Shown one piece after another: positions 4,423-48,310 of a DNA stretch of 63,145 nt. A program made the translations under genes and the position numbers. This DNA comes from a virus: IMG/VR virus record IMGVR_UViG_3300050821_013320, positions 1-63,145 of that record; one strand, 5' to 3'. Numbering within the stretch: the first letter of the stretch is position 1; each line of letters opens with the position of its first letter. Below the pieces are notes generated by a model, which did not search any database, was not told the origin of the DNA, and worked only from the letters and a program-made list of their open reading frames with translations.

Positions 4423-4470
4423 GGAAGGAAGTCTATCATAGGATGGTTTTGGTTGGGAAGTACCAATTTC
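4423..4470 (-). promoter_or_regulatory. Possible promoter region with AGTACC motif
   Basis: AGTACC lies at 4459-4464 on the + strand, with TATGATAG between it and the ATG at 4422 when read on the - strand. The motif also occurs in the other non-coding leaders, so this may be a - strand start point. Confidence 0.35.
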
Positions 4471-5104
4471 ATGCTTTGGCCTCATGGTACTTGAGGCTTC
4501 GCTTGGGTTTTGGAGCGCTCAACCAGGAGTGGTTTTGGAGAGACTCGCGCAATCGTTCACGGGCTTTATCGGCCAACTGGGAAACCCGGCTTTCATGGAT
4601 TCCGAGACGGCGCCCAACTTGTTTCATGGGAATTTCTTCGAGGTAGTGGAGGCGGATCAGAAGCGCGGAGCGTTCGTTCAACTCCGAATCCCAACCGTCC
4701 GGCAGTTCCCGATTATCGACAAGATGATCTTCAATCGATTGCCGGTTATCGGACAGAGTGTCCTTGAAGTTGGTTCCCTGGACATCGATGCTGAAGTGGG
4801 CAGGGACGGTTTTTTTACGTCGATTAAAACCCGGTTTGCATGTCCGGAGATAATCTTTCATCGCGCCACGGACGCGCATTAGAGAAGCCTTGCCGAAGTG
4901 CCCATTTCGCGCCGGGTCCCAGTTAAACGTCGCCTCCCACAGAGCGAGACGCGCGACTTGTTCTAGATCCTTGAAGTGATCGTCCATTCCGATTGCGCTT
5001 GAGAGACGACGGGCTAGGCGCGAGTAGTAGGCACGCATCTCCTGTTCGACCATCGCGGCACGATCCATCCAACACAGTTTACAAGAACCGTGGTTCCGTC
5101 TCAT
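4469..5104 (-). CDS. Sigma-28-like RNA polymerase sigma factor (about 211 aa)
   Basis: Region 2 is visible as YYSRLARRLSSAIG through RVRGAMKDYLR, and region 4 as a helix-turn-helix (MKQVGRRLGIHESRVSQLAD) after ERSALLIRLHYLEEIP. This is the FliA/sigma-28 arrangement. The start is uncertain: ATG at 5104, 5068 or 5053 are all possible. The much longer open frame upstream is a shadow of the next two genes. The C-terminus (SLKYHEAKA) is translated repeat. It may direct host polymerase to the element's own promoters, such as the CCTAAG/AGTACC blocks (inference). Confidence 0.8.
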   Translation of the reverse strand: MRRNHGSCKLCWMDRAAMVEQEMRAYYSRLARRLSSAIGMDDHFKDLEQVARLALWEATFNWDPARNGHFGKASLMRVRGAMKDYLRTCKPGFNRRKKTVPAHFSIDVQGTNFKDTLSDNRQSIEDHLVDNRELPDGWDSELNERSALLIRLHYLEEIPMKQVGRRLGIHESRVSQLADKARERLRESLQNHSWLSAPKPKRSLKYHEAKA

Positions 5105-5279
5105 CCCACGAATATCGAGGTAGCCGTTTTCGGGGAAGTCTGGGATTTCTTCCGATACCCCAACGTTTGCGATACGCCCGGCTGATTTCGCGCTGTTTGC
5201 AGACTCGGCACGTTCCACAAAGGCACGTTGGTTTGCGTCCGCCTTTGTTCGAGTGGTTATTGTGGACGCCCTTCGGCAT
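5079..5279 (-). CDS. Zinc-ribbon protein (66 aa)
   Basis: The motif GRKPTCLCGTCRVCKQRE has four cysteines in the order C-x-C-x2-C-x2-C inside a basic protein. Similar short basic zinc proteins are common in phages and plasmids. It probably binds nucleic acid or polymerase. It overlaps the DUF3310-type gene upstream and the likely start region of the sigma factor downstream. Confidence 0.65.
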   Translation of the reverse strand: MPKGVHNNHSNKGGRKPTCLCGTCRVCKQREISRAYRKRWGIGRNPRLPRKRLPRYSWDETEPRFL

Positions 5280-5466
5280 TGGCGATTTTTCGCTCCAGAT
5301 ACCAGCGCGCTTTCTTCAAATCCTGAAGTTCGGAATCTCCCGGCTTGTTTCCGGCGCGCAGGAGATACTTGACGATGGTTCCGCTCAGGAAATCGAGTTT
5401 GAAATCTTCGATGATCCGCATGACGTAATCGCCGTGGTAGTGCTCGGGCTTGACTGGATCGCTCAT
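5257..5466 (-). CDS. DUF3310-type phage protein (69 aa)
   Basis: The motif order PEHYHGDY, SGTIVKYLLRAGNK and DLKKARWYLERKI matches the DUF3310 (SaV-like) family, a nucleotide-kinase-related domain frequent in phages. Length fits a single domain. It sits in a tight overlapping run with its neighbours. Confidence 0.8.
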   Translation of the reverse strand: MSDPVKPEHYHGDYVMRIIEDFKLDFLSGTIVKYLLRAGNKPGDSELQDLKKARWYLERKIANAEGRPQ

Positions 5467-5663
5467 TGGACAGTCGGATGTCGGCCCTGAACGAAGATTG
5501 GACTTGACGTGATTTGGAGTGCGACCTTGCCGCCTTCAATCTTTCGGAGTGTGACCGAAATCAACGGTTGTCCGTACTGAGACAGAACAATGTCGCGGGT
5601 CTCATCGAGTTCTAGCCACGTGAAGTGGTCGGGATTCGGAGGAGGGACGTGCGGAGCGGGCAT
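5463..5663 (-). CDS. Small hypothetical protein (66 aa)
   Basis: Starts MPAPHVPPPNPDHFTWLEL at 5663, where the previous gene's stop overlaps (TAATG). Compact alpha/beta composition with no recognised family. The longer open frame to 5834 is a shadow of the upstream gene. Confidence 0.55.
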   Translation of the reverse strand: MPAPHVPPPNPDHFTWLELDETRDIVLSQYGQPLISVTLRKIEGGKVALQITSSPIFVQGRHPTVQ

Positions 5664-6049: not shown

Positions 6050-6585
6050 ACGACCAACCCGGAGCGCGATTTCTCGGCTTCAGCCAATATATGTTTGTGA
6101 ATGAAGATCTCCGATTCGAGTTCGGCGATCTGGACTTCGATAATCTGCTTTTCCGCCGTCTCCTGCAACTTGTGTGACTCGTTCCACAAGGAAACCGGAC
6201 CCGGCGTCACGTCCGCCGGCGAATGCGTGATGTAGCGCGACAAGTAGGTGACCAGGCGGCGCGTCATGTCCGAGTGTTTGATCAACGCCTTTAATTTCGC
6301 TTTCTGCATGTCCAGCTTGGCTTCAAGCAGCTTGATCTGGTTCTTTACCTGTTCTGGGTTTACGGGGATGAGTCGCTGGTTTTGGGAGGGGTTCATTTTG
6401 TTTTGGCCTCGTTCTACTTTTTCAGCTTGTTCGGATTGAAACTTCTCGACAGCGGCCATTTGTCCGGGTTGGAACATCCCACAGATACAGCGGCCTTGTT
6501 CTTCAACCAAGAAGTGTTCGTATTGCGAACAGTAGTTCACAAACCCCTCCTGGTCGAACGGAGCAGCATCCGCGCGAAGCCGCAA
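6046..6585 (-). CDS. Fusion of cassette-encoded protein with helical protein (179 aa)
   Basis: The first 63 residues come from the cassette at 6398-6605: a repeat-encoded head (ADAAPFDQEGF), a CICG pair, and a type-3 repeat tail (QSEQAEKVERGQNK). With no stop, the frame runs into MNPSQNQRLIPVNPEQ, which looks like the original start of a helical coiled-coil protein at 6394. The second part may also start on its own ATG at 6394. It is a direct example of a cassette making an in-frame fusion. Confidence 0.6.
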   Translation of the reverse strand: MRLRADAAPFDQEGFVNYCSQYEHFLVEEQGRCICGMFQPGQMAAVEKFQSEQAEKVERGQNKMNPSQNQRLIPVNPEQVKNQIKLLEAKLDMQKAKLKALIKHSDMTRRLVTYLSRYITHSPADVTPGPVSLWNESHKLQETAEKQIIEVQIAELESEIFIHKHILAEAEKSRSGLVV

Positions 6586-6605
6586 CTACGATGAGGCCAA
6601 AACAT
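6398..6605 (-). mobile_element. Repeat-bounded cassette 3
   Basis: R-L type-3 unit at 6398-6457 and L-R A-type unit at 6547-6605. Cargo is the short N-terminal part of the fusion gene 6046-6585. Confidence 0.75.
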
Positions 6606-7159
6606 CATCCCTGCTTCGACCTGATCATAATATCCATTGCAATCTGATGCAACGGGATGTTCTGCGCTGTTCCCAACTGCAACTCGGTTTCGAAGTGCTC
6701 GAACAGAAATTGCCGCAACTTCTGATCGCGTTTCTGAGCTTCAATGTGGGCTTGCCCGATATCGGCCATGGATAGCCGCGCCCGTTTGTCGTTCAATTCT
6801 TTGGCAAGGGCGAGCGCGAGTTCTTTGATCTCCTGCCGGAAGATGCGGATTGGGTCCGCGGCGAGAGATACGATCTGTGCGCGCGTCAGCTTGACCCGGC
6901 CGGTGAACACTGCACGCCAGTCGCGGCGGGGTACGGGTACGTCCGCCGATCCCTCTTCGGACCACTGACGGTAGAGCCCTTCGTAGGCTTCCATCTTGTC
7001 CGCAATCTCTCCCTTGGGAAGTCCCTCGATTGCCTGTGAGGCTTTGAAGTCTTCGTAGGCGTGATCGTGTTCAATAGAGCCCGGCGCATCGGGGAAGAGT
7101 TTTCCTGATGGGGTTCCGCCTAATTCTGGGGTGGTGATGGTGGAGAATTCTTCGTTCAT
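6605..7159 (-). CDS. Hypothetical helical protein (184 aa)
   Basis: Starts at ATG 7159 beside the R end of the next repeat. Mainly alpha-helical and charged, with a basic segment (WRAVFTGRVKLTRAQIVSLA) and a long C-terminal helix pair. No signal, membrane segment or known motif. It lies between cassettes 3 and 4 and could belong to the element's backbone. Confidence 0.55.
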   Translation of the reverse strand: MNEEFSTITTPELGGTPSGKLFPDAPGSIEHDHAYEDFKASQAIEGLPKGEIADKMEAYEGLYRQWSEEGSADVPVPRRDWRAVFTGRVKLTRAQIVSLAADPIRIFRQEIKELALALAKELNDKRARLSMADIGQAHIEAQKRDQKLRQFLFEHFETELQLGTAQNIPLHQIAMDIMIRSKQG

Positions 7160-10470: not shown

Positions 10471-10628
10471 ATGATTTTCTGCACTTATGCTCCAAAGACG
10501 TAATCTCCATTGGAAAAGAAACATCCTGGTGCGCACCAGCTCTTTTAGAATTCTGGGACGATCTCAAAAAGATCGGCGAAGAACGAATTCTTCGCGCCAC
10601 ATTCCGCGGACTGCGAGAAATGCGGTGA
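10467..10628 (+). CDS. Small hypothetical protein (53 aa)
   Basis: ATG at 10467 overlaps the previous stop and follows the R box. Helical sequence with two cysteines (HLCSKDVISIG, TSWCAPALLEF, WDDLKKIGEERI). Stop overlaps a GTG start (GTGA). Unknown function. Confidence 0.5.
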   Translation: MNDFLHLCSKDVISIGKETSWCAPALLEFWDDLKKIGEERILRATFRGLREMR

Positions 10629-10828: not shown

Positions 10829-11049
10829 TCAACGTAAAAGTCTCCATCGAAGAAATCAACCCGTTCTGCTTCTTCGTCTCCGTGGTCGATGAGGACGGAA
10901 CATCCGGCAGCACCAGAATCACAGGTGACACGGCAGTCGCATTCGATGGAGCACGCCGCGAAGCCGTCCGAATGCTCGACAACATCCTCAAGGCGCATGA
11001 GCCGAATCCGACGCCCGGCCAAGTCGTCCGCGGAGGAAAACAGAAATGA
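10825..11049 (+). CDS. Small hypothetical protein (74 aa)
   Basis: Begins MINVKVSIEEINPFCFFVSV, beta-rich, then a helix (FDGARREAVRMLDNILKAHE) and a basic tail. The layout of strands then helix resembles small phage accessory proteins. Coupled by overlap to both neighbours. Confidence 0.55.
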   Translation: MINVKVSIEEINPFCFFVSVVDEDGTSGSTRITGDTAVAFDGARREAVRMLDNILKAHEPNPTPGQVVRGGKQK

Positions 11050-12817: not shown

Positions 12818-12851
12818 ACCCGCATCGAAACGATCCGGTGCGGGTATTTTT
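12818..12851 (+). terminator. Rho-independent terminator between convergent operons
   Basis: ACCCGCA at 12818-12824 pairs with TGCGGGT at 12839-12845, followed by ATTTTT. It stands between the rightward operon and the leftward lysozyme gene. Read on the other strand it has an A-rich rather than a T-rich run only on one side, so it mainly serves the + strand. Confidence 0.75.
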
Positions 12852-13461
12852 ACGCTCCGAAGTAGTCTGCCAACTCTTCCGCCGTTCCGTTGAACGTGTC
12901 CCGATCCACCTGCCCCACAATCCCCGGACACGATCCGATGCCGTGCTGCCAGATGCGATAGCCCTTCCACTGCGGAGGAATCAGCGGCGTCCTCGTGAAC
13001 CCCGTCAACCACAGATCGCAATTCAACAGCGAAAGATCCCAGCGCGTCGAATCGGTCGTCTGCAAAAACGCCGCTGAAGTGTAGAGCATCGGCCAGCGGC
13101 CGGTTTTCTCCTGAATCCGTTTCACGAACGCGGTCGCCTGGTCGACAGTCATCGTGTCGGCGTTGTTCCATTCCCAATCGAGGGCAAGGAGTTTTGCACC
13201 GTGAGCAGCTCCGATGAAGTAGTCTGCCTGTTGGATCGGGTCGTGACTTTGAACGCCGAAGCAGTACGCGCCCCAGAGTAGTTTTGCGTTCGTCGATTGA
13301 AACTGCCGGCTGAGATAGCGCGGGTCCATCGTCAGACCTTGAGAGGCTTTGTGGATCACTGCTTGAACGCCGGAGTTCGCAATTTCTCCGAAGTCATGGA
13401 CGGTGTTCCAGTGGGATAAATCGATAATTGAGTCGGTACCGGATATTGGTGGGTTTGGCAT
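12850..13461 (-). CDS. GH25 lysozyme, probable endolysin (203 aa)
   Basis: The N-terminal IIDLSHWNTV, a central LLALDWEWN and a C-terminal YRIWQHGIGSCPG are hallmarks of glycoside hydrolase family 25 muramidases, with the catalytic acidic residues in the DLS and DWEW strands. Length equals a lone catalytic domain; no signal peptide or cell-wall-binding repeat is seen. It would cut peptidoglycan for release. Transcribed toward the terminator. Confidence 0.88.
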   Translation of the reverse strand: MPNPPISGTDSIIDLSHWNTVHDFGEIANSGVQAVIHKASQGLTMDPRYLSRQFQSTNAKLLWGAYCFGVQSHDPIQQADYFIGAAHGAKLLALDWEWNNADTMTVDQATAFVKRIQEKTGRWPMLYTSAAFLQTTDSTRWDLSLLNCDLWLTGFTRTPLIPPQWKGYRIWQHGIGSCPGIVGQVDRDTFNGTAEELADYFGA

Positions 13462-13703: not shown

Positions 13704-14699
13704 GTGAAGCGCGAAGCCGTCCACCACTCCAAAATGAAGCGGCTCTGCCGCAAACTGAATTTAGAACTTTGGCAAGCAGTCGGACTGCTCGAATCGATCT
13801 GGCACGTGGCCGCGCGGCAGACTCCATGTGGCGACATCGGGAAGTTGTCGGACGAAGACATCGCCATCGCCATCGACTATCACGCAGACGAGCGAATCAT
13901 GATCGATGCCCTTGTCAATTCCGGCTGGATTGACCGCAACAAAGAACACCGTCTCGTGGTTCATGATTGGCCGGATCATGCCGAAGATGGAGTGCATATG
14001 AAAGTTGCCCGCGCGAGGCAATTTTTTATCCGTCAAGGACCCGGCGACGATGCAATTTTAGAGGCTCCAAAACTGTCGCGTTTTTTCGCCAGGGAACGGG
14101 AGCCTTTGAGGGAATTTTACGAGAATGTAAAGATTGGTAAAAAAACCTCCAAACGTGCGCACGGCGTGCGCACGGATCTTGAAACCGTGCGCACGGATCG
14201 CCAAACCGTGCGCACAAAAAGCCAATCCGTGGCGAAGACCCCGCCTAGACCCCGCCTAGACCCCGCCTTAACCCCGCCTCTAACACCGAACACTGCTGAC
14301 AGTTCGAAGTCTAGTTTTCAACCGGGAGTACCGTCGTCGTCATTTCGCGAGATTGGAATAGCGCTCGGTCTCGACGACGACGCGGCACGAAAACTGATTG
14401 CCAAAATCGCTCAGACGGACGAGACTGTCACGACGCGGGAAATCATCGAACTCGGTCGGATGAAGAAATCGCAAGTCCGGAACGGAGTCTCAAACTGGCC
14501 CGGCTTACTCCTCACTAGCATTCCGAAAATGGCAGCGGGCTCACCGTTGGAGCTCGTGAGAAAAAATCTCAACGGGCATTCAAAACACATCGCCGAGGAC
14601 GCAGCGCAGAGCCGCCGTCTCGCACAGAACACGCTTGACGATCCGACCGCCACAACCGAAGAAAGGAAAATCGCAAATGAACTCCTCCAACGAACCTAG
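13704..14699 (+). CDS. Replication initiator-like protein (331 aa)
   Basis: GTG start. The N-terminal 110 residues (HSKMKRLCRKLNLELWQAVG, CGDIGKLSDEDIA, HRLVVHDWPDHAED) have the winged-helix pattern found at the N-terminus of phage and plasmid replication proteins. A low-complexity linker (about residues 150-205), encoded by iteron-like repeats, joins a helical C-terminal domain (LGLDDDAARKLIAKIAQT). This is the arrangement of lambda O: initiator with its origin inside the gene. Likely binds the repeats and loads a host helicase (inference). Confidence 0.7.
   Translation: MKREAVHHSKMKRLCRKLNLELWQAVGLLESIWHVAARQTPCGDIGKLSDEDIAIAIDYHADERIMIDALVNSGWIDRNKEHRLVVHDWPDHAEDGVHMKVARARQFFIRQGPGDDAILEAPKLSRFFAREREPLREFYENVKIGKKTSKRAHGVRTDLETVRTDRQTVRTKSQSVAKTPPRPRLDPALTPPLTPNTADSSKSSFQPGVPSSSFREIGIALGLDDDAARKLIAKIAQTDETVTTREIIELGRMKKSQVRNGVSNWPGLLLTSIPKMAAGSPLELVRKNLNGHSKHIAEDAAQSRRLAQNTLDDPTATTEERKIANELLQRT
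14155..14281 (+). other. Candidate origin of replication inside the initiator gene
   Basis: Four copies of the palindrome GTGCGCAC start at 14155, 14166, 14187 and 14208, so spacings are 11, 21 and 21 bp, close to whole helical turns. They are followed from 14237 by three to four tandem copies of ACCCCGCCTA with an 11-bp period. An AT-rich stretch with AAAAAAA lies just upstream (14120-14150). Helically phased iterons in an initiator gene resemble lambda ori. Confidence 0.6.
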
Positions 14700-14961: not shown

Positions 14962-15303
14962 ATGGCTATTTCCAAAAAACGATCACGTACAGCGCGTCCT
15001 ACGCCAAAATGGAAATCAAAACGACGGCGATGTCTCTCGGACAATAAACTCTTTTATCCGAAACTCCAAAAACAACGGTTCTGTTCCGACGCCTGCCGAA
15101 AAGAATTTCATCGTTACGGAGAATCGTATGGGCCGATCAAGATGGGACTCGAAAGAGCGCTGGAAAAGAAATCCGCCGATCTCGAAAAACAACTAAAGCA
15201 AGATGTCCGTGCAATCAAAGATCAGATGTGTGTTCTTCGGGAACAGATAGAACTTATCCTGGTCGAACGGAACCGATCGGACGCGAAGCCCGAAGCCGGA
15301 TGA
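14962..15303 (+). CDS. Zinc-finger protein with repeat-encoded tail (113 aa)
   Basis: Basic N-terminus (KKRSRTARPTPKWKSKRRR), then RFCSDACRKEFHRYG, a short CxxxC finger that also occurs in phage DNA-binding proteins, then a coiled-coil helix (ERALEKKSADLEKQLKQDVR). The tail LILVERNRSDAKPEAG comes from the repeat unit 15255-15314. Confidence 0.6.
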   Translation: MAISKKRSRTARPTPKWKSKRRRCLSDNKLFYPKLQKQRFCSDACRKEFHRYGESYGPIKMGLERALEKKSADLEKQLKQDVRAIKDQMCVLREQIELILVERNRSDAKPEAG

Positions 15304-15312
15304 GGCCAAAAT

Positions 15313-15675
15313 ATGAAGTGCCACTTCTGTCTCAAGGAAGCAACCTCGCAATGCACCTTCAAAGTGCCGGACGCGCGAATCGTGTTTCCTTCCGAGATTG
15401 AAAAACTGGATTTGATTTTGGATACCGTGTCGCTGATCTACCGCCCGGTTAAAACAACGCCGCTGGTGAACGGACACGACTACACGACGTTGAAGTTTGC
15501 GGGCAAGAAGAGATCGACGATTGAGCGATTGGTAAACATCCGGCTGCCGTGTTTGCGGATGGAGATTCACGAGTGCGGATTGTGGACGTGTGACACGCAC
15601 ATCAGAGAGTTCGATGAAGGGTTGACGCAGTGTGCGGAGCATTGGCCGGTGGAACGGGTTTACGGAGTGGATTGA
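15313..15675 (+). CDS. Zinc-binding hypothetical protein (120 aa)
   Basis: Starts MKCHFCLKEATSQCTFKVPD at the R box of the previous unit. Further cysteines (LPCLRM, ECGLWTCDTH, QCAEH) suggest two zinc sites. No family is recognised. The following cassette starts 10 bp after its stop. Confidence 0.55.
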   Translation: MKCHFCLKEATSQCTFKVPDARIVFPSEIEKLDLILDTVSLIYRPVKTTPLVNGHDYTTLKFAGKKRSTIERLVNIRLPCLRMEIHECGLWTCDTHIREFDEGLTQCAEHWPVERVYGVD

Positions 15676-15684
15676 TCCGCTTTT

Positions 15685-16815
15685 TATTTTGGCCTCATCG
15701 GGCATGAAGATTCGACCGGGTTTCGGTGCGTTCGACCAAGAGAGGATTTTGAGAATGGGATTGACATCGATAGAGTGGACGGATCGGACGTGGAATCCAA
15801 CGCGCGGCTGTTCGAGAGTATCGGAAGGATGCCGGAACTGTTACGCGGAAAGAATCGCCGCGCGGTTCAGCGATGAAGATTTAGAAGATCCGATAAATTG
15901 CGATCCTCCGTTGTGTGAACTCGATCCTCCACTTTCAGACAAGAGGACGGGTGTATTTTACGGGTTCGCGATTCGCACACCATCAGGTCCGCGCTGGACC
16001 GGCAAAGTGGAATTGATCGAATCGAAGTTGAGCGAGCCATTGCACTGGAAGAAACCGCAACGCGTGTTTGTTAATTCGATGAGCGATCTGTTTCACGAAG
16101 CGTTGCCGGATGACGCGATAGACCGTGTGTTCGCGATCATGGCGCTGTGTCCGCACATCACGTTTCAGGTTTTGACGAAGAGGCCGGAACGGATGTTGAA
16201 GTGGTTTACACCTGATTGGGATGCGCCGCGTGAAACATGGGAACGGGTCCGAGTTAGAACGGCACTTGTAAAAACGAAGATGTCGGAGGAATGGGACTGG
16301 CCTCTTTCCAACGTATGGCTCGGAGTCTCCGTCGAAGATCAGGCAACCGCCGACGTTCGCATCCCGCTTCTGTTGCAGACACCCGCCGCGATCCGGTTCG
16401 TGAGTTATGAACCGGCGCTCGGGACGGTGGACTTCGCAGAGTTTTTCAAACGATCTCCGCGATGTCCAACGGAGGCGTGCATCGCTCTTGATGAATGTGC
16501 GTGTCTCACTCGAACAGGACTCGACTGGATTATTGCGGGCGGGGAATCAGGACCCGGCGCGCGGCCTCCGCATCTCGATTGGTTTAGACAAGTCCGTGAT
16601 CAATGTATCGCCGCCGATGTTGCGTTTTTCTTCAAGCAATGGGGTGAATATTTTCCACGACCCGGTGAAGCATGGATGGGCGATCTTCATATGGAACGCA
16701 TCGGGAAGAAAAAAGCTGGCGCTCTTCTTGACGGTCGCGAGTGGAAACAATTCCCTCTCTTGGTCGAACACACCACCAGCCGCGCGAAGACTCAATCCCG
16801 ATGAGGCCAAATCAT
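15685..16815 (+). mobile_element. Repeat-bounded cassette 9
   Basis: R-L unit at 15685-15742 (L box has CCAAGAG) and L-R unit at 16757-16815, both A type. Cargo is the Gp37/Gp68-type gene. Confidence 0.75.
15755..16804 (+). CDS. Gp37/Gp68 (DUF5131) family protein (349 aa)
   Basis: ATG at 15755 follows AGAGAGG of the L box. Motifs TSIEWTDRTWNPTRGC, EGCRNCYAE, VFVNSMSDLFHE, FQVLTKRPERM, NVWLGVSVEDQ and WIIAGGESGPGARP are the signature order of phage Gp37/Gp68 proteins. The three N-terminal cysteines recall radical-SAM proteins; the reaction is not established. The tail FPLLVEHTTSRAKTQSR is repeat-encoded. Confidence 0.88.
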   Translation: MGLTSIEWTDRTWNPTRGCSRVSEGCRNCYAERIAARFSDEDLEDPINCDPPLCELDPPLSDKRTGVFYGFAIRTPSGPRWTGKVELIESKLSEPLHWKKPQRVFVNSMSDLFHEALPDDAIDRVFAIMALCPHITFQVLTKRPERMLKWFTPDWDAPRETWERVRVRTALVKTKMSEEWDWPLSNVWLGVSVEDQATADVRIPLLLQTPAAIRFVSYEPALGTVDFAEFFKRSPRCPTEACIALDECACLTRTGLDWIIAGGESGPGARPPHLDWFRQVRDQCIAADVAFFFKQWGEYFPRPGEAWMGDLHMERIGKKKAGALLDGREWKQFPLLVEHTTSRAKTQSR

Positions 16816-31641: not shown

Positions 31642-32346
31642 TTGCCACTACCCGGCACCGCTCAAATGACCACTGCGGGCTACCCGCAGAATAACCAGAC
31701 CGCGGCTATGGTCGCAGCTCAGGCGGCGCAAAACGCCGTCGCCGCGATCACCGCGCAACAGCAGTTCATCATCAATTCGTTCCGCGGGCAGATTTACATC
31801 TCGAATCAGCTCGACGTCGAAGACACGCCGGTGTACGACACTGTAACGTACACCGCAGGTCAGACCGTGACGCTCACCAATGCGTCGTGGTTCACCAACG
31901 TCGAAGGCAATTCGGGAAAAACGTTTGCCCAAACCAACATGGACACCAACGGCCGTCTTGACGCGCCCGAGGCTTTCTCCGTGTTCGGAGTCCGCTTCAA
32001 CTGGTCGGAAGGTATTCTGCGCTCCGATCTGCAAACCTTGCTCGATTCGTGGGCGTTTGAATTCTGGCTGGGAAAGAAAAACTACCAGCGCGCCAATATC
32101 CGCCACTTCTCCTCGGGGATGGGGATTTCGGGCTACACCACCAAAACCGCGGAGTCGTTCTACACCAACGGCGTTCCCGGCCGTCAGTCGATGAACATGC
32201 TTTCGGTTAAACTGGTGATCGCGAACCAAATGTCGTTTGAGGCGTTTCTGTCCGGCAACAATTCCGGCCAGGTTCTATCATCTTCGGGTGCGGGGGCAAT
32301 CCTGTACGTGGAGTTGGTGGGACTGTACGCACGCGGCGTTCAGTAA
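31642..32346 (+). CDS. Candidate major virion protein (234 aa)
   Basis: A strong AAAAGGAG precedes a TTG start. A Gln/Ala-rich helix (MVAAQAAQNAVAAITAQQQF) is followed by a beta-rich body (DTVTYTAGQTVTLTNASWF, ESFYTNGVPGRQSMNMLSV). The order of helix then beta-body, the gene position and the good ribosome binding site fit a capsid or major surface protein. No homologue was recognised; this is inference. Confidence 0.45.
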   Translation: MPLPGTAQMTTAGYPQNNQTAAMVAAQAAQNAVAAITAQQQFIINSFRGQIYISNQLDVEDTPVYDTVTYTAGQTVTLTNASWFTNVEGNSGKTFAQTNMDTNGRLDAPEAFSVFGVRFNWSEGILRSDLQTLLDSWAFEFWLGKKNYQRANIRHFSSGMGISGYTTKTAESFYTNGVPGRQSMNMLSVKLVIANQMSFEAFLSGNNSGQVLSSSGAGAILYVELVGLYARGVQ

Positions 32347-37257: not shown

Positions 37258-39107
37258 TGGCGGTTCCTGCGCTTTACAATTTTGGAACTTCACAATCGAT
37301 CACAGCCAATAACCAAGGCGCTGGAACTGGTGGACCCTATCTGTTCTGGGGTGATAACTTTGCGGGCTCTGTCCATGTACGAATCTATAAGGACAACGGA
37401 ACCGGCACCTATGTTCTGCTCCAAACCCTTACCTGTCCAGACGCGCCGAACGATTTTCTAATCAATCAACGCTGCTACGACCACGGTTCCGGTTTTTTGG
37501 TTCTCGGAGGGATCAATAAAGTCTACCTTTATAAAGTGGTTGCTGGTCTGTTTGTCCTTCAGGACACCTATAACCCGGTAGGCCCGTTGGCTTTAATACA
37601 AGGCACGGCAATCGCGATTTCGGGAACCAATGTAGTCCTTCTAGGACAACTGTTTTCCACGAATCATTTGATCTGCCGATATATGACGGTCAATACCGGG
37701 GCCTTCGTTTTTCAACAGGATTTCAACGATGCGGCGTTGGACAATCGTGGAAGCTACCTCAACGGGACGGCCTCGTTTTCAGGTACTCATTTTGTTCTCG
37801 GCAACAGCGTCACGCATGCGCTGAAATGTTTCGAGTTATCCGGAGGCTTGTTCACCTTAGTTCAGACGATCCCCAACGTGTTATTTGCGAATGTGTTAGA
37901 TCTCGGTTATTTGTTCATCGTGCCGAGTCCGATTGCGGCCATCGGATATACGACGATTTTCTCCTTTGCCGGAACATGGACACTGTTGCAATCGATCAAT
38001 TTGCCGGTGTTTCCAGGATCTTTGATCGGGTCCGCTCCCTATGCGTTCACTTCCCCCACGCTAGGCGCATCCGTGGTGCTTATTAGCGGCTTTTGGAATG
38101 GGGCTGGACAAGATTCTCCGGTTCAAGTGGCCTATCTGACCGGCGGCGCATGGGTGGTTTATCAAAACGCCAATCTCAGTCCGTTGATATCGGACAATGA
38201 AGGTGTATCGGGCTCGCAAAGTGCATTTTTTATGCTTGATGCGACCGATACCGTCATCAGTATTTTCAGTGCATCTCCCCCTCCACAGGTACTCGTGTAT
38301 TTGATCGGCAAAAAACTCTATCCGTGCGCCGACAGCGAGTCCCACCAATCGGAAAATCAGAGCACTTACAGATCTCCTCCTGGTACATTTGATCTGCCCT
38401 TCACGTGGGTTTTCGATGCGTCGATCTTCGCGAACGGATCCGCCCAGCCGAACTCCTCCGTTTATCTGCTCGGAGGGTACGGAGATTTTCTTTTACGCCG
38501 TGTCGTGGGGATGAATCGCATTCTTGCCGGCGACAAAACCGGCCAGTTTCAAATCCAGCGCGCGACGAAGGGCTCCTACATCCAATCCGATCCGGTGATG
38601 GGCGAGAATTCCCCGGAGCTGGCGATCGCGCCCGAAGAGTGGTACCCGGAAACCGGCAAAATCTGGTTTGACCTCTTCGGCATCAATCAGCCGACGCCCC
38701 TCGCGAGTTCTCAAATAGCGTTTCAAGGCGTCCGGCGCCAAAAAGGAACGCTCAATCGTCCGAAGGGATCGTTCAATCCTAAATCCTACACCTACCAGGT
38801 CGCCGCAACGATCGATGCGATCCCCGGATCTCCGATTGTTGCGCGGACGCTGATTCAGGATTACGATTTTGAGCTCCACCAGATCATGGTGATGGTGAAA
38901 GGGCCCTCGGGCTACGTCCCGGTCACGACGCCGGTTTGCACGATTTCTGTTTTCGATCAGAATAAGGTCTCGATTTCGAATAAGCCGGTCCTGGACATCT
39001 TTTACAACGGAGCTCCGGGGACGCCCTATCAGAATGGGGCGATCGTTCCGCCGTTGGTCTACAAAAAAGAGACCTTGCTCCAGATCAATTTCTACCGTCT
39101 GACCTAG
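37257..39107 (+). CDS. Candidate virion protein B, two-part fusion (616 aa)
   Basis: TTG start after E5. Residues 1-355 form a beta-propeller-like or WD-like series of repeated strands (FLVLGGINKVYLYKVVAGL, TAIAISGTNVVLLGQLFS) ending VLVYLIGKKLYPCA. Residues 365-616 are a close paralogue of protein A. The KLYPC end in the middle looks like the former end of a separate gene, so the ORF is a fusion of two. Confidence 0.6.
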   Translation: MAVPALYNFGTSQSITANNQGAGTGGPYLFWGDNFAGSVHVRIYKDNGTGTYVLLQTLTCPDAPNDFLINQRCYDHGSGFLVLGGINKVYLYKVVAGLFVLQDTYNPVGPLALIQGTAIAISGTNVVLLGQLFSTNHLICRYMTVNTGAFVFQQDFNDAALDNRGSYLNGTASFSGTHFVLGNSVTHALKCFELSGGLFTLVQTIPNVLFANVLDLGYLFIVPSPIAAIGYTTIFSFAGTWTLLQSINLPVFPGSLIGSAPYAFTSPTLGASVVLISGFWNGAGQDSPVQVAYLTGGAWVVYQNANLSPLISDNEGVSGSQSAFFMLDATDTVISIFSASPPPQVLVYLIGKKLYPCADSESHQSENQSTYRSPPGTFDLPFTWVFDASIFANGSAQPNSSVYLLGGYGDFLLRRVVGMNRILAGDKTGQFQIQRATKGSYIQSDPVMGENSPELAIAPEEWYPETGKIWFDLFGINQPTPLASSQIAFQGVRRQKGTLNRPKGSFNPKSYTYQVAATIDAIPGSPIVARTLIQDYDFELHQIMVMVKGPSGYVPVTTPVCTISVFDQNKVSISNKPVLDIFYNGAPGTPYQNGAIVPPLVYKKETLLQINFYRLT

Positions 39108-41068: not shown

Positions 41069-42610
41069 TCATCGCCTCACAACATTTCGTTTCATACCTG
41101 AAACCACCTGATACCCATCAGATAGCTTATAAAAAAATCCCAGTGTTGTAAGCGCATCACATTCCCGGTAGACGCTCGGCTTGGCGACGGAGACACCCCG
41201 CTTCTGCAATTCGTTGAATGCCGCGTTGCCGGCAGTTGGGTTGTCGAAGAATCCTTCCGTGATCAGCCGGGCGATGTTTCCTCGCAGCGAATCCCCGTCT
41301 ACTTCAATGGTCCGTTTGGTGACTTCGAATTGGATTTCCGGCTCCGTGGCCATGATTTTCAAACACACTGGATCTTTGGTGATGCGGGCTTTGATTGCGG
41401 ACCACAGTTCTTCGGAGAGATGGCCGTTCGAACTCCTGATGGGTTGGCGCTCTTCACGGGTTGCCGGTTTTGCCGACTGCCCCTCCGTTCGCGCTAAGAA
41501 GAGTCGTTCGATTCGCGCTTCGAGTTCTTCGACCCGGCGTTGAGATTCAGCGTAGAGCGATTCCCAATCGACGTAGTTGCCTTCCTTATCCATCGGCATA
41601 TCGGACTCCTGTTCCTCGACTTCGAACGGCTGCAAAATCTCCGGCTCCGGTTCAGCTTTCTTCCGGTTCTTCGACTTCGGTTCTCCAATCGCGTTCAACC
41701 GTTCCTGAATCGCCTCCAGATCAATACTGGCAAGAACAACCTTGCGCGTCGTCTCATCCGGCGCCTTCGAGCTGTCGTAGGTCGAGATCCGGGGAAACTG
41801 CGTCAATTCGAGCAAGCCGATCTCCGGCGCCCACAGCCAGCCTTGCCCGGTATCGAGCGACGGAAGGGTTTTCACCACGTCGCCGCCCTGTGCGCGCGTG
41901 GCCCACTCTCCAATCCAATCCTCAACCGCAGCGACGTCGTGAGGCGCAATCATCCGCATTGCGATCAACGTAGCGGCCTGCGTCAGCGAATCTTTGTGCA
42001 ACTTACTTGGCCGCTGGGAGATAAGCGTGATTCGGAGGCCATTTCCGCGGCCGAGGCTCACCAAGTTGTTTCCGGCGTGCAGCATGCGCCCCGATTGCGG
42101 GCTGTAGACTTTGCCCTGGGGCATGAACAGGTGCGCTTCGTCGATGATCAGATTGAGAGGCCCAGTGTTGATTCGCAGCAACGTTTCCCCGAAGTCCGCC
42201 AAAAACGTCGTCCGCTCGGCAATTGTCATGTTGCGGGTGTTGATCACCGCTGACGTCTCGGTGGTTCCGATGATCTCCGCGATCGCGTGGCCTTGCGTGT
42301 GGCTCAAAGGTAGGTCGGAGTGCTTTCCGCCGAACACGTAGATTGGGAAGCCTGGTTTGCGGCCGGTGACATCGGATCGCAGTCCCCACCAGACGCCCGT
42401 GGGATCAAGAATGCAGACTCTCCGGCGCTGTTTGAGCAGCATTTCGGCGATTCCCTTGGCAGTGTAGGTTTTGCCGGAGCCGGTAATCCCCAGAATCGCA
42501 ATGTGCTGCTCCAGGACCTTCGCGGGGATCTGTTGCGATGAGGTTCTCCCAGTGGATAAGACGTTTAATAGCTCTTTGCCTTGCTTCTGGAGTTGTAGGA
42601 GGGGGTCCAC
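41069..42610 (-). CDS. HerA/FtsK-type ATPase (513 aa)
   Basis: Walker A is ILGITGSGKTYTAKGIAEML, Walker B LNLIIDEAHLFMP, and LITLISQRPSKLHKD the sensor region. This is the HerA/DUF87 hexameric DNA-pumping family. The C-terminal 170 residues add a Lys/Glu-rich linker, a coiled coil (DWESLYAESQRRVEELEARI) and a winged-helix-like end (NELQKRGVSVAKPSVYRECD). In an element without a recognisable terminase it is the best candidate packaging or transfer ATPase (inference). Confidence 0.82.
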   Translation of the reverse strand: MDPLLQLQKQGKELLNVLSTGRTSSQQIPAKVLEQHIAILGITGSGKTYTAKGIAEMLLKQRRRVCILDPTGVWWGLRSDVTGRKPGFPIYVFGGKHSDLPLSHTQGHAIAEIIGTTETSAVINTRNMTIAERTTFLADFGETLLRINTGPLNLIIDEAHLFMPQGKVYSPQSGRMLHAGNNLVSLGRGNGLRITLISQRPSKLHKDSLTQAATLIAMRMIAPHDVAAVEDWIGEWATRAQGGDVVKTLPSLDTGQGWLWAPEIGLLELTQFPRISTYDSSKAPDETTRKVVLASIDLEAIQERLNAIGEPKSKNRKKAEPEPEILQPFEVEEQESDMPMDKEGNYVDWESLYAESQRRVEELEARIERLFLARTEGQSAKPATREERQPIRSSNGHLSEELWSAIKARITKDPVCLKIMATEPEIQFEVTKRTIEVDGDSLRGNIARLITEGFFDNPTAGNAAFNELQKRGVSVAKPSVYRECDALTTLGFFYKLSDGYQVVSGMKRNVVRR

Positions 42611-43854: not shown

Positions 43855-44157
43855 CTTTTTTGGCCTCAGTCGGCTTGAGTCGTTGCTTCTGGTCCGTCCG
43901 TTCGACCAGGAGGGGTTTTGGAGCGTGACTCCCTCATCTTTTTGAGGAGATCAGGGATTACTTCGGTTGCGATGAAAAGTTTCTCTTCTATCGACGCTCC
44001 GAACAATGCGCCGGTGATGGCAACATCTGCCAAGAGATCATCCTGTTGTGATTGGCTGAGTCTATGAAGCGGATTCTTTCGTAATTTCACAGTCCATCTC
44101 CTGGTCGAACGCTCCCGCCCTCAGTCGCAGGCGGCACGCCCGATGAGGCTAAATCAT
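43855..44157 (-). mobile_element. Repeat-bounded cassette 16
   Basis: R-L unit at 43855-43912 and L-R unit at 44098-44157, both A type. Cargo is the gene 43866-44090; the L-R unit also encodes the tail of the recombinase. Confidence 0.75.
43866..44090 (-). CDS. Cassette gene: small helical protein (74 aa)
   Basis: Begins MKLRKNPLHRLSQSQQDDLL; helical with a hydrophobic patch (LFGASIEEKLFIATEVIPDL). Ends with repeat-encoded PPGRTDGPEATTQAD. Overlaps the recombinase stop by ATGA-type contact. Possibly a small partner protein; function unknown. Confidence 0.5.
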   Translation of the reverse strand: MKLRKNPLHRLSQSQQDDLLADVAITGALFGASIEEKLFIATEVIPDLLKKMRESRSKTPPGRTDGPEATTQAD

Positions 44158-44755
44158 GAGCCAAAAGCCTTCGTATGACAAGCCCCACTCCAGAAACAGA
44201 CCGATACATTCTCACAGAAATCTCCTGGTGTGAAAGTCCTTCTCGGTGAAGCGCTAAAATCTGCTCTTCCTGAAACCGCGAACTCTTTCGCCGGCGCCCC
44301 AGTTGAACGCCTTTTGACTTCGCATTGGCAAGCCCGGCTTTGACCCGCTCCACAATCATCTCCCGCTCGAACTCCGCGAACGAGCCGACGATCTGAAAGA
44401 ACAATCGCCCCATGGCCGTCGTCGTGTCGATGTTCTGGGTTGCCGAAATAAAGTCGATTTTCAAAGCCTCGAACAACTGGAGGGATTCAATCAGCGTTTG
44501 CAGCGATCGCGCGAAGCGGTCGAACTTCCAGACCATCAGAACATCGAAGCGTTTTCGGCGCGCGTCGTTCATCAGGTTTTTGAACTGCTCTCCCTGCCCT
44601 GCCCGGCGCTTCGAAACCACTCCGGTTACTTGGTCGACGTACTCCCGGTATACGGTGAAGCCTCTTCGGTGGGCATCGCTGCGGAGTTCCATCAGTTGGG
44701 ATTCTGCGGATTGGTCTGATGTGGAGACGCGGGCGTAGATGGCGGCTGTTTTCAT
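44087..44755 (-). CDS. Serine recombinase, resolvase/invertase family (222 aa)
   Basis: The catalytic Ser lies in AAIYARVSTSDQSAESQ; LMVWKFDRFARSLQTLIESL and MGRLFFQIVGSFAEFEREMI are the conserved catalytic-domain motifs; ILALHREGLSHQEISVRMYR is the C-terminal helix-turn-helix. Length fits the small-resolvase class. The final 20 residues (SSGVPPATEGGSVRPGDGL) are repeat-encoded. It could resolve multimers, invert segments, or act on the repeats (inference). Confidence 0.9.
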   Translation of the reverse strand: MKTAAIYARVSTSDQSAESQLMELRSDAHRRGFTVYREYVDQVTGVVSKRRAGQGEQFKNLMNDARRKRFDVLMVWKFDRFARSLQTLIESLQLFEALKIDFISATQNIDTTTAMGRLFFQIVGSFAEFEREMIVERVKAGLANAKSKGVQLGRRRKSSRFQEEQILALHREGLSHQEISVRMYRSVSGVGLVIRRLLAHDLASSGVPPATEGGSVRPGDGL

Positions 44756-45700: not shown

Positions 45701-45781
45701 CTGTATTGTAAAGGCCCAAAAGTACCATCTTAAGTACCATTGTTTCTAACGCCCAAACCCGCTAAGATGCAGGGAGGTTTT
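45676..45781. promoter_or_regulatory. Divergent promoter region with double AGTACC
   Basis: Direct repeats AAGTACCAT start at 45720 and 45732 (12-bp spacing). GGGAGG before the ATG at 45782 is the ribosome binding site. Same AGTACC word as the other leaders. Confidence 0.4.
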
Positions 45782-48310
45782 ATGAGCACCCCAGAAACGC
45801 GCTATAACGAGCCGGAGAGCGGGCCTATCCAAGATGTCCAGACGCCTCCCTCCGTCGCGTCCTACAAGCGGTTTCTTCGCAGCAAGGCCCCAATTGACCC
45901 GCCAACTGGCTTCAAAGTCTCTCCCAACGATCTCTCGCCGTTTCTGTTCGACTTCCAACGCGCAATTACGGCGTGGGATCTGGAACGAGGCCGCGCCGCC
46001 AACTGGCTGGATTGCGGCATGGGGAAAACCATTATCCAACTCGACTGGGCGCGCATGGTTTCGGTCCACACCAAAAAGCCGGTGATCATCGCCGCTCCGC
46101 TGGCCGTTTCTCAGCAGACGCAACGCGAGGGGGTCAAATTCAATATCCCCGTGACGATCTGTGCTCAACAGTCTGAAGTCGTGCCGGGCGTCAACATCAC
46201 GAACTACGAGAAACTCGATCGCTTCCCAGATCCCTCGCAGTTTGGTGGAATTGTGCTGGACGAATCGAGCATTCTTAAGGCCTTTGACGGCAAAACTCGC
46301 AAACGGCTCACGGAATATGCGCAGACGATTCCATTCCGTCTGGCTTGCACCGCAACCCCAGCCCCGAACGATTACATGGAACTGGGGAATCACGCCGAGT
46401 ATTTGGGTGTCATGAAGGCTGTCGAGATGCTGGCGACGTTCTTCGTCCATGATGGCGGCGACACATCGAAATGGCGTCTCAAAAAGCACGCGACGGAGGC
46501 ATTCTTCAAATTTCTGGCATCGTTCGCGGTCGCACTCCGCAAACCCTCCGATATCGGATTCCCCGATGGACCGTTCGTTCTGCCCAAACTGCGTATGCAC
46601 TCGGTCCAGATTGACGACGACACGATCCCTGAGGACTGCCTATTTCAGGTTGAGGCGAAAACCTTGGCCGAACGGCGGGACGCGCGAAAGCGAACGATCA
46701 ACCATCGCGTGGAGGCCGCCGCCGATCTTGCCAATAAAGACAGTGATCCGTGGATCCTTTGGTGCAACCTCAATTCAGAAAGTGAAGCGCTCGCGAAAGC
46801 CTGCCCCGATGCGGTTGAGGTTACGGGTTCGATGAAGGACACGGACAAAGAAGCCGGCATCCTCGGTTTCGTCGATGGAACGCATTTGGTGCTGGTTTCA
46901 AAACCAACCATCGCGGGCTATGGCATGAACCTCCAGCACTGCTCCAAGATGGCGTTTGTGGGACTGTCGGATTCGTTCGAGCAACTGTACCAGGCAATTC
47001 GGCGATGCTGGCGATTCGGTCAGAAGAAACCAGTCGATGTTTACGTCGTCACGTCGACCAGCGAAGGCGCCGTCGTGCGGAACATCGAACGGAAGGAACG
47101 GCAAGCTGCAGAAATGATGGATGGCATGGTCAGACACATGAAAAAAGAGATGCAGAAAAACCTGAAGGGTATGGACCGTGAACGGGACAGCTTCAAACCG
47201 AGAAACGAGTCCGCCGACCGCTGGGAGATGCGTTTAGGGGACTGCGTCGAGGAAATCCGTAAGGTGGAAACCGGATCGATCGACTTCACGATTTTTTCCC
47301 CTCCGTTTGCTTCTCTCTACACGTACTCGAATTCAGATCGGGATATGGGAAACGCGCGGAACATGGAAGAGTTCGCGAAGCACTTCGGTTTCTTGGTTCC
47401 CGAACTGTACCGCGTGACGAAACCGGGCCGGTTGCTTTCGTTCCATTGCATGAACCTGCCCACGTCGAAACAAAACGACGGCGTGATCGGAATTCGGGAC
47501 TTCCGCGGAGAACTCATCCGCATGTTTCTCGGCGATCACGCAGTATTGATGGATTCCCTTCGGGCTCTTCGCAATCGATCTTTCGAAGCCCATGTTAAGG
47601 GCGAGAAACGCCGCGAGGAAATGCTTAAACAGGCGATCGATGAAATCGAGTACGAGTTGCGCGAAAACCCCAGCAGTACAGGGTTCATTTTCCATTCAGA
47701 AGTCTGCATCTGGAAAGATCCCGTTACAGCGATGCAACGCACCAAGGCAATCGGTTTGTTGTACAAACAACTCCGAAAAGATTCGTGCATGTCGCGCCAG
47801 GGGATTCCCGACTATCTCGTGACGGTTCGCAAGCCGGGAGAGAATAAAGAGCGGGTCACTAAGGTAGCGCCGCCGGCAGGTGGAACGTTCAAACACGCGC
47901 GGAATGTCCCGGCGAATGAATTCCCGGTAGAACGCTGGCAGAATTACGCATCGCCGGTATGGATGGACATTCAGCCAAACGATACGCTCACAAAGGAATC
48001 CGCGCGCGCCGAAGATGACGAACGCCACATCTGCCCGCTGCAGCTCGAAGTGATTTCGCGTGCGATCGAGCTTTGGACCAATCCCGACGATCTCGTTTTG
48101 TCGCCATTCGCCGGTATCGGGAGCGAAGGCTACGTGTCATTGAAGGAAGGCCGGCGTTTCCTCGGTTTTGAATTGAAGGAATCCTACTGGCAACAGGCCG
48201 TCCAAAACCTCAGATCTGCGGAAAAGATCCAGCACGGTTTGTTCGCGTCCGAACCAGACCCTCTCCTGGTCGAACGATCAACTCTCGAAGCGCCGCCTCA
48301 ATCCGACTGA
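45782..48310 (+). CDS. SNF2-type helicase fused to DNA methyltransferase (842 aa)
   Basis: ATG at 45782 follows GGGAGG. N-terminal SF2 helicase: WLDCGMGKTIIQLDWARM (motif I), GGIVLDESSILK (II), LACTATPAPND (III), and C-terminal helicase motifs (PTIAGYGMNLQHCSKM, YQAIRRCWRFGQKKPVDVYV). From residue 480, a SAM methyltransferase with FTIFSPPFASLYTYSN (SPPF) and LVLSPFAGIGSEGYVSLKEG. Such fusions are known in phages and probably modify element DNA. The tail LLVERSTLEAPPQSD is repeat. Confidence 0.88.
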   Translation: MSTPETRYNEPESGPIQDVQTPPSVASYKRFLRSKAPIDPPTGFKVSPNDLSPFLFDFQRAITAWDLERGRAANWLDCGMGKTIIQLDWARMVSVHTKKPVIIAAPLAVSQQTQREGVKFNIPVTICAQQSEVVPGVNITNYEKLDRFPDPSQFGGIVLDESSILKAFDGKTRKRLTEYAQTIPFRLACTATPAPNDYMELGNHAEYLGVMKAVEMLATFFVHDGGDTSKWRLKKHATEAFFKFLASFAVALRKPSDIGFPDGPFVLPKLRMHSVQIDDDTIPEDCLFQVEAKTLAERRDARKRTINHRVEAAADLANKDSDPWILWCNLNSESEALAKACPDAVEVTGSMKDTDKEAGILGFVDGTHLVLVSKPTIAGYGMNLQHCSKMAFVGLSDSFEQLYQAIRRCWRFGQKKPVDVYVVTSTSEGAVVRNIERKERQAAEMMDGMVRHMKKEMQKNLKGMDRERDSFKPRNESADRWEMRLGDCVEEIRKVETGSIDFTIFSPPFASLYTYSNSDRDMGNARNMEEFAKHFGFLVPELYRVTKPGRLLSFHCMNLPTSKQNDGVIGIRDFRGELIRMFLGDHAVLMDSLRALRNRSFEAHVKGEKRREEMLKQAIDEIEYELRENPSSTGFIFHSEVCIWKDPVTAMQRTKAIGLLYKQLRKDSCMSRQGIPDYLVTVRKPGENKERVTKVAPPAGGTFKHARNVPANEFPVERWQNYASPVWMDIQPNDTLTKESARAEDDERHICPLQLEVISRAIELWTNPDDLVLSPFAGIGSEGYVSLKEGRRFLGFELKESYWQQAVQNLRSAEKIQHGLFASEPDPLLVERSTLEAPPQSD

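Follow-up and report, generated by a model that had tools for sequence, protein, structure and literature searches.

We find that the replication initiator gene of this virus very probably carries an origin with iterons inside its own coding sequence. The window, meaning the whole stretch of DNA analysed (a virus contig of 63,145 bases), encodes a member of family phrog_9474. The part of this gene that specifies the linker of the protein contains four copies of the palindrome GTGCGCAC, followed by an array of short CC units on the coding strand. Taken as a whole, positions 14110–14282 probably constitute a theta-type phage origin in which iterons and array have the roles proposed below. Good support for an origin lying within the initiator gene, though not proof, comes from the family identity of the protein, from phased, frame-independent iterons enriched in the linker, from sister repeats in relatives, and from the way residue 99 of the protein tracks iteron type. 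The features concerned are these:

13704–14699 (stop codon included), + strand: initiator gene, 331 aa, GTG start, phrog_9474 'replication initiation protein'
13704–14033, + strand: N-terminal winged-helix-like domain, residues 1–110, presumed iteron reader (AlphaFold2 model, winged-helix matches)
13986–14012, + strand: helix 95–103 with Met99, candidate specificity helix (mutual information, residue 99 counts, model helix)
14110–14149, no strand assigned: AT-rich stretch, AT 0.68, directly 5′ of the iterons (mean excess seen over 21 genes)
14155–14162, no strand assigned: iteron 1, palindrome GTGCGCAC
14166–14173, no strand assigned: iteron 2, GTGCGCAC
14187–14194, no strand assigned: iteron 3, GTGCGCAC
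14208–14215, no strand assigned: iteron 4, GTGCGCAC
14239–14282, + strand: CC array of eight units, CCCCG and CCTAGA-like in turn (steps 5, 6, 5, 6, 5, 6, 5), identical with the 11-bp repeat
14334–14696, + strand: helical C-terminal part, residues 211–331, presumed recruiter of replication proteins (AlphaFold2 model)

The N terminus of the protein, which an earlier note on this DNA had likened to a replication initiator, matches the phrog_9474 profile over residues 3–95 (E 8e-16), and the same profile is matched by 74 of 74 aligned members of the family. Further matches among these are to O-like initiators, DnaD-like loaders or primosomal proteins in some members and to the N-terminal domain of DnaA in one. 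In Pfam, the window protein matches neither PF04492 nor, up to E 1, RepA_N (PF06970); its sole match is a sub-threshold one to RWP-RK. In Paenibacillus phage Harrison, Roseburia phage Shimadzu and Faecalibacterium phage FP_Lagaffe, the family gene lies directly 3′ of the ERF and SSB genes. A DnaC-like gene comes next in Harrison and Shimadzu, and the next gene in FP_Lagaffe is noted as SPP1 gp38-like. These neighbours suggest that phrog_9474 proteins act as initiators. The AlphaFold2 model has block pLDDT values of 89–98 for residues 1–110 and 42–63 for residues 141–210, followed by a helical C-terminal part, which may recruit replication proteins, judging from the C-terminal matches of other members. 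Fold comparison returns winged helices at Z 5–6 for residues 1–93, many of them transcription regulators; the first match, 4pta ('MDR initiator'; Z 6.0, rmsd 2.9, 79 aligned), is tied with unrelated winged helices. A sequence search of solved structures with alignment A3 gave nothing at E ≤ 1, Foldseek gave nothing at E ≤ 0.001, and narrow protein scans from the relatives L001 and L046 each retrieved the query only.

Within the gene, the four copies of GTGCGCAC succeed one another at steps of 11, 21 and 21 bp, and CCCCGCCT then recurs at 14239, 14250, 14261 and 14272 (step 11; tandem repeat 14239–14282), just as the earlier note had described. Iterons and 11-bp repeat together fall in the codons for residues 151–193. 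This agrees with the earlier placing of the iterons in the linker, since the low-confidence linker of the model spans residues 141–210. One further GTGCGCAC lies outside the initiator gene, at 10529, and there are no others in the 63,145 bases. An A-rich stretch had been reported next to the repeats; it does adjoin the iterons, on their upstream side, and an AT-rich region on the array side is not found, the CC array of the window having an AT content of 0.30. No 8-mer reached four copies within 130 bp in 2000 protein-preserving shuffles of the window gene (maximum 3), and GTGCGCAC itself reached four copies in 2 of 5000. It is from these shuffles that the significance of the window's iterons is taken, and not from a de novo repeat statistic, by which the window itself is not flagged (p = 0.06) because the 9-mer score chose another word.

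Comparison with relatives indicates that the repeats are maintained as DNA. In L001, whose protein is 70% identical, the iteron block is retained nearly base for base: among codons for the same residue, 24/25 are identical between the window and L001 in the iteron block, as against 129/208 in the remaining gene (Fisher p = 0.0003). Scanning viral contigs for the pattern GTGCGCAC-N13-GTGCGCAC, we obtained 55 loci, eight of which (L008, L015, L017, L020, L037, L046, L059 and L061) code for relatives with the sites in the linker. Such a scan selects for iterons, so relatives were then gathered by protein: the best 80 of 161 viral relatives, 24 genome loci (Bryobacterales, Edaphobacter and Planctomycetes among them), the window and six others. 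These 111 loci reduce to 94 at 90% identity over the first 110 residues. One caveat is that the query alignment contained four sequences found by the pattern, a possible source of bias.

In this set, the 94 linkers (26.6 kb) contain 52 copies of GTGCGCAC, and the rest of the loci, some 19 times as long at 498.7 kb, contains eight; shuffles predict a mean of 0.94 and at most 4 in the linkers. It is the top palindromic 8-mer there, the runner-up having 11 copies. At least one linker copy is present in 24/94 members and at least two in 16/94. When the window, its nearest relative and the lineages from the pattern scan (W, L068, L069, L070, L100 and L101) are left out, 10/88 genes still have at least two. 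Counted over the genes, there are 53 copies, where protein-preserving shuffles give a mean of 7.8 and a maximum of 14. The copies occupy all three reading frames (20/18/14), and 40 adjacent TGCGCA spacings cluster at 9–11, 20–22, 32–33 and 42 bp with four outliers (13 twice, 49 and 65). The periodicity of these spacings is strong at 10.5 bp (R = 0.81) and 11 bp (R = 0.83) and weak at 3 bp (R = 0.26). At the level of sequence, then, the iterons, their helical phasing and their independence of the codon frame are established. The earlier note had named codon-level low complexity without conservation as an observation that would speak against an origin; the synonymous conservation in L001, the use of three frames and the relatives show otherwise.

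Relatives that lack GTGCGCAC often have other repeated, often palindromic words at the same place, such as TGTCGGGAC, GTCTGGACA, GTTCCGGAA and CCGACAACG. Repeats 5′ of the array are detected at p ≤ 0.01 in 39/69 array-bearing genes; of the array-less genes, 6/25 have repeats at this level. In L124, there are 13 repeat copies, the first eight of which step by 11 and 10 bp alternately, so that the helical pitch is held and the codon frame broken. The L075 initiator appears to have a T5orf172/MUG113-like domain inserted at residues ~105–195, between the N-terminal domain and the CC array; Pfam matches of this kind occur in 1–2 of 74 members, and their placing in L075 is our own reading.

The 11-bp tandem repeat, which the earlier note had listed along with the iterons, is present, but it is better described as a piece of a strand-specific array of 5–6-nt CC units than as additional iterons. 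To score arrays, we linked CC dinucleotides spaced 5 or 6 nt apart and took the longest such chain, counting it as an array from five units upwards. The window has a chain of 8 on the coding strand and of 2 on the other, a length reached in 0/100 protein-preserving shuffles. Across the family, arrays of at least five units are found in 69/94 linkers on the coding strand, in 5/94 on the other strand and in 0/94 N-terminal parts, and outside the gene at the same loci in 36/1654 strand-tiles; the remaining 25/94 members have no array of this length. The order of the two elements is fixed, GTGCGCAC lying upstream of the array in 21/21 genes having both, with a gap of 2 to 83 bp. The commonest 6-mer unit is CCAGAG (32 genes), and common 5-mers are CCAAG, CCCCG and CCTAG. 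In two members, from Roseburia and Faecalibacterium phages (L065 and L066), AG chains of 7 and 8 replace the CC chains.

Several features of these arrays bear on their nature. Steps of 6 (328) and of 5 (150) are mixed, the latter in 40/69 arrays, and CC falls in all three frames (311/119/117). The observed chain is reached in at most 5/100 protein-preserving shuffles in 32/94 genes. Arrays confined to frame 0 often read PEPEPE, the shuffle is usually uninformative for them, and arrays wholly in frame 0 could have a protein-level cause. For the array in general, we consider a DNA-level element very likely. Its base composition is not that of an unwinding region: over 21 genes there is on average no AT-rich region 3′ of the iterons and the array itself is not AT-rich, while a modest AT excess lies 5′ of the iterons (0.46 vs 0.40, p = 0.009).

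A similar layout is seen in a second initiator family. One pattern-scan locus, L055, encodes a PF09681 initiator in which GTGCGCAC occurs twice at 21 bp and is followed by an AGAGNN array. From 29 PF09681 loci we obtained 23 non-redundant members (L055 being counted as L177). An AG chain of at least five is present on the coding strand in 21/23 genes, with none on the other strand, none in the N-terminal part, and none in 137 control tiles on either strand. Synonymous choice within the arrays is strongly biased: all 55 Ile codons are ATA, compared with 113/334 elsewhere, and Glu is GAG in 135/157 cases, compared with 223/467 elsewhere. The protein-preserving shuffle is passed at 0.05 by 18/23 genes. 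In many of them, the array comes after short repeated words, for example GTTACA or GTCACA. PF09681 (Phage_rep_org_N) thus resembles phrog_9474 in having repeats and then a coding-strand array of 5–6-nt units, and differs in belonging to another Pfam family and in its units, AGAGNN rather than CCNNAG. A search for PF09681 in the four genomes or records from which L148, L149, L150 and L064 come found it in none (0/4). Neither CC nor AG chains of at least five units are present on either strand of lambda O, YdaU or TP901-1 Rep, so the arrays are not universal. In E. coli K-12 ydaU (Rac prophage, L172:4620–5477), a DUF1376 gene, TGTTCAAACA-like repeats and then GATAAA/GATACA 6-nt repeats can be seen by eye in the linker, possibly a third version of the two-part layout.

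Variation within the N-terminal domain offers a view of what may read the iterons. Mutual information with iteron class, computed on 34 classed sequences of the 74 aligned over N-terminal columns up to residue 112, is highest at columns 99, 102, 98, 112 and 100, and four of these five fall in helix 95–103 of the AlphaFold2 model. GTGCGCAC is found in 12/15 genes with Met99 and in 1/31 with Lys99; two or more GTC-GAC palindrome-like words occur in 18/31 Lys99 genes versus 5/63 without Lys99. This tracking of iteron type by residue 99 is indirect evidence that the N-terminal domain reads the iterons. The alignment used (A3) comprises 74 of the 85 sequences that passed a length filter, the last of 75 taken from these being left out, and L093 was omitted from the tree. 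Corrected for ancestry, the association between site and residue is not significant, because the short-domain tree is poorly resolved and leaves four pairs on supported branches; in these, the helix motif goes with the iteron in 2.4 pairs on average and against it in 0.0. The link between helix 95–103 and iteron type provides a direct route to testing initiator specificity.

The expectation that cumulative GC skew would switch near 14.2 kb is not borne out. The minimum of the window is at 49,175, with a local minimum within 8–18 kb at 15,097. A search for direct terminal repeats of 20–399 bases found none in the window; as a result, the window is not established as a closed circle, which makes the skew a weak test. 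In a circular Synechococcus phage (L175) the skew minimum is at 10,840 and the initiator at 6,099–6,989, and in L176 the skew, once detrended, is lowest at 32,231, with the initiator at 37,589–38,413. With the window minimum elsewhere and no clear support from these related phages, we dropped GC skew as support for an origin.

How might the two elements work together? We infer binding by the initiator, origin activity and a partner for the array, in the following scheme. The N-terminal winged helix would recognise the palindromic GTGCGCAC copies, all four of which lie on the same face of the DNA helix, and the initiator would assemble on them as an oligomeric complex. The coding-strand CC array would be an adjacent second DNA element, a strand-specific, single-stranded landing site for the opened strand. 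Helicase would be loaded for rightward unwinding while this strand is kept in place by a partner, which could be the initiator, a host replication protein or a helicase loader. The array-bearing strand is the one on which a 5′–3′ helicase would drive a rightward fork. We put forward the landing-site role of the array, which is drawn by analogy, only tentatively.

The layout can be compared with known systems. The lambda origin sits midway through gene O and comprises iterons and an AT-rich region, the latter required for unwinding (PMC7466680). The window resembles it in having iterons in the linker part in the middle of the initiator's own gene (L173 annotation; available text of PMC7466680), bound by O in lambda and predicted to be bound here. 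It differs in several respects: the lambda iterons are 18 bp long and followed by an AT-rich region (same source), whereas the window has 8-bp palindromes and no AT-rich region downstream; the CC array has no counterpart in lambda O; and lambda O matches PF04492, which the window protein does not. The core of the earlier suggestion, a lambda-like origin within the initiator gene, is supported by frame independence, helical spacing, synonymous constraint, sister repeats and the helix association; three of its details differ, namely the nature of the 11-bp repeat, the place of the A-rich stretch and the skew. The RepA_N plasmid pSK41 has its origin midway along rep; four boxes are bound by the N-terminal winged helix of Rep, whose linker is dispensable and whose C-terminal part is DnaD-like (PMC5703833). 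The window can be compared with it in its probable mid-gene origin, its four sites and a modelled winged-helix-like N-terminal domain, for which the first fold match, 4pta, is tied with unrelated proteins; the window protein differs in lacking a RepA_N Pfam match, and the available text of PMC5703833 mentions no CC array.

For the array itself, the closest analogy is the DnaA-trio of bacterial oriC, which sits beside duplex sites. Initiators can hold one strand of a melted region, and the trio, a short repeated motif, stabilises DnaA on single strands (available text of PMC4980987). The CC array is likewise a short repeated motif, for which a role on single strands is hypothesised; its units are of 5–6 nt, as opposed to 3 nt in the trio, and it does not qualify as one. 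In searches of the open-access literature we found no description of strand-specific short-period arrays beside iterons, the PF09681 AG arrays included, and the available text of PMC8093625 does not describe them. Two-part layouts recurring in many related viruses may represent a general origin design. More speculatively still than the landing site, several unrelated families of tailed-phage initiators might share one two-part grammar, with lineage-specific palindromic iterons at helical spacing followed by a coding-strand 5–6-nt array (CCNNAG in phrog_9474, NNAGAG in PF09681). On this view the array would resemble a DnaA-trio of larger unit size: a single-stranded element, general in occurrence and specific in sequence, which a single conserved partner reads, for instance the replicative helicase of the host or the loader of that helicase.

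It is also conceivable that the iterons serve as an operator. Winged-helix matches include many transcription regulators, palindromic sites would suit a repressor as well, and the GC-skew minimum is elsewhere, all of which would fit a protein that regulates transcription from an operator inside its own gene, with the origin at another place. We regard this as improbable: the family annotation and the neighbouring genes are replicative, the sites are mid-gene in every site-bearing member (past residue 105 in the counted region), and the fixed downstream array would be left without a role. A proline-rich or charged linker that grew by short-repeat expansion, with slippage or protein-level selection and no DNA function, could instead account for the array and in part for the iterons. 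The linker is disordered in the AlphaFold2 model, and the commonest array reads PEPEPE, in frame-0 arrays for which the shuffle says little. Such an origin of the array would not by itself give a strand bias of 69 to 5, 5-nt steps in more than half of the arrays, CC units in every frame, SQSQ and PEPE versions from the same DNA, or the exclusive use of ATA in PF09681 arrays, and we consider it unlikely.

A G-quadruplex formed opposite the array, on its complement, would likewise explain the strand bias, and the complement of 14239–14282 has four GGGG runs with 7-nt loops. A canonical three-tetrad motif is present on the complement in only 6/69 arrays, most of the 69 giving GG pairs only, and in PF09681 the coding strand of the array is rich in AG; we therefore discarded a G-quadruplex as the general cause and think it very improbable that the array works in this way. 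An iteron-bearing origin with an adjoining DNA-level array remains our preferred reading. Origins within initiator genes are already known. What is new is the recognition of the 11-bp repeat as an instance of a strand-specific CC-unit array, not AT-rich and of a form common to two initiator families. Should the array prove to be a landing site for a single strand, sequence alone could suffice to locate many phage origins, and the opening of DNA in phages without an AT-rich unwinding element would become testable.

Other observations concern the scan loci and the remainder of the window. Nine scan loci (L010, L012, L013, L024, L043, L048, L049, L056 and L057) encode proteins of ~195–225 aa with an N-terminal HTH-like region and GTGCGCAC/TGCGCA repeats just past it. 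These proteins look like small terminase subunits and are possibly another case of putative binding sites inside the own gene. Most other large ORFs of the window have no family match; those with an assignment are the following:

4469–5539, − strand: sigma-factor-like protein
12850–13461, − strand: GH25 lysozyme
15632–16804, + strand: DUF5131 protein
41069–42610, − strand: terminase-large-subunit-like ATPase
44087–44755, − strand: serine-recombinase-like protein
45740–48310, + strand: helicase-methyltransferase-like protein

Finally, the window contains a dispersed element of ~60–65 bp at ~48 sites on both strands, composed of TTTTGGCCTCATCGG, a variable middle and CGTTCGACCAGGAG, and terminating in a Shine-Dalgarno-like GGAG. 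Sites include 3592 (+), 13518 (+), 15267 (−) and 62166 (+); among the fifty matches listed, those at 5045 and 49598 lack the left part. L001 also has the element, with at least four full copies in 7.6 kb.
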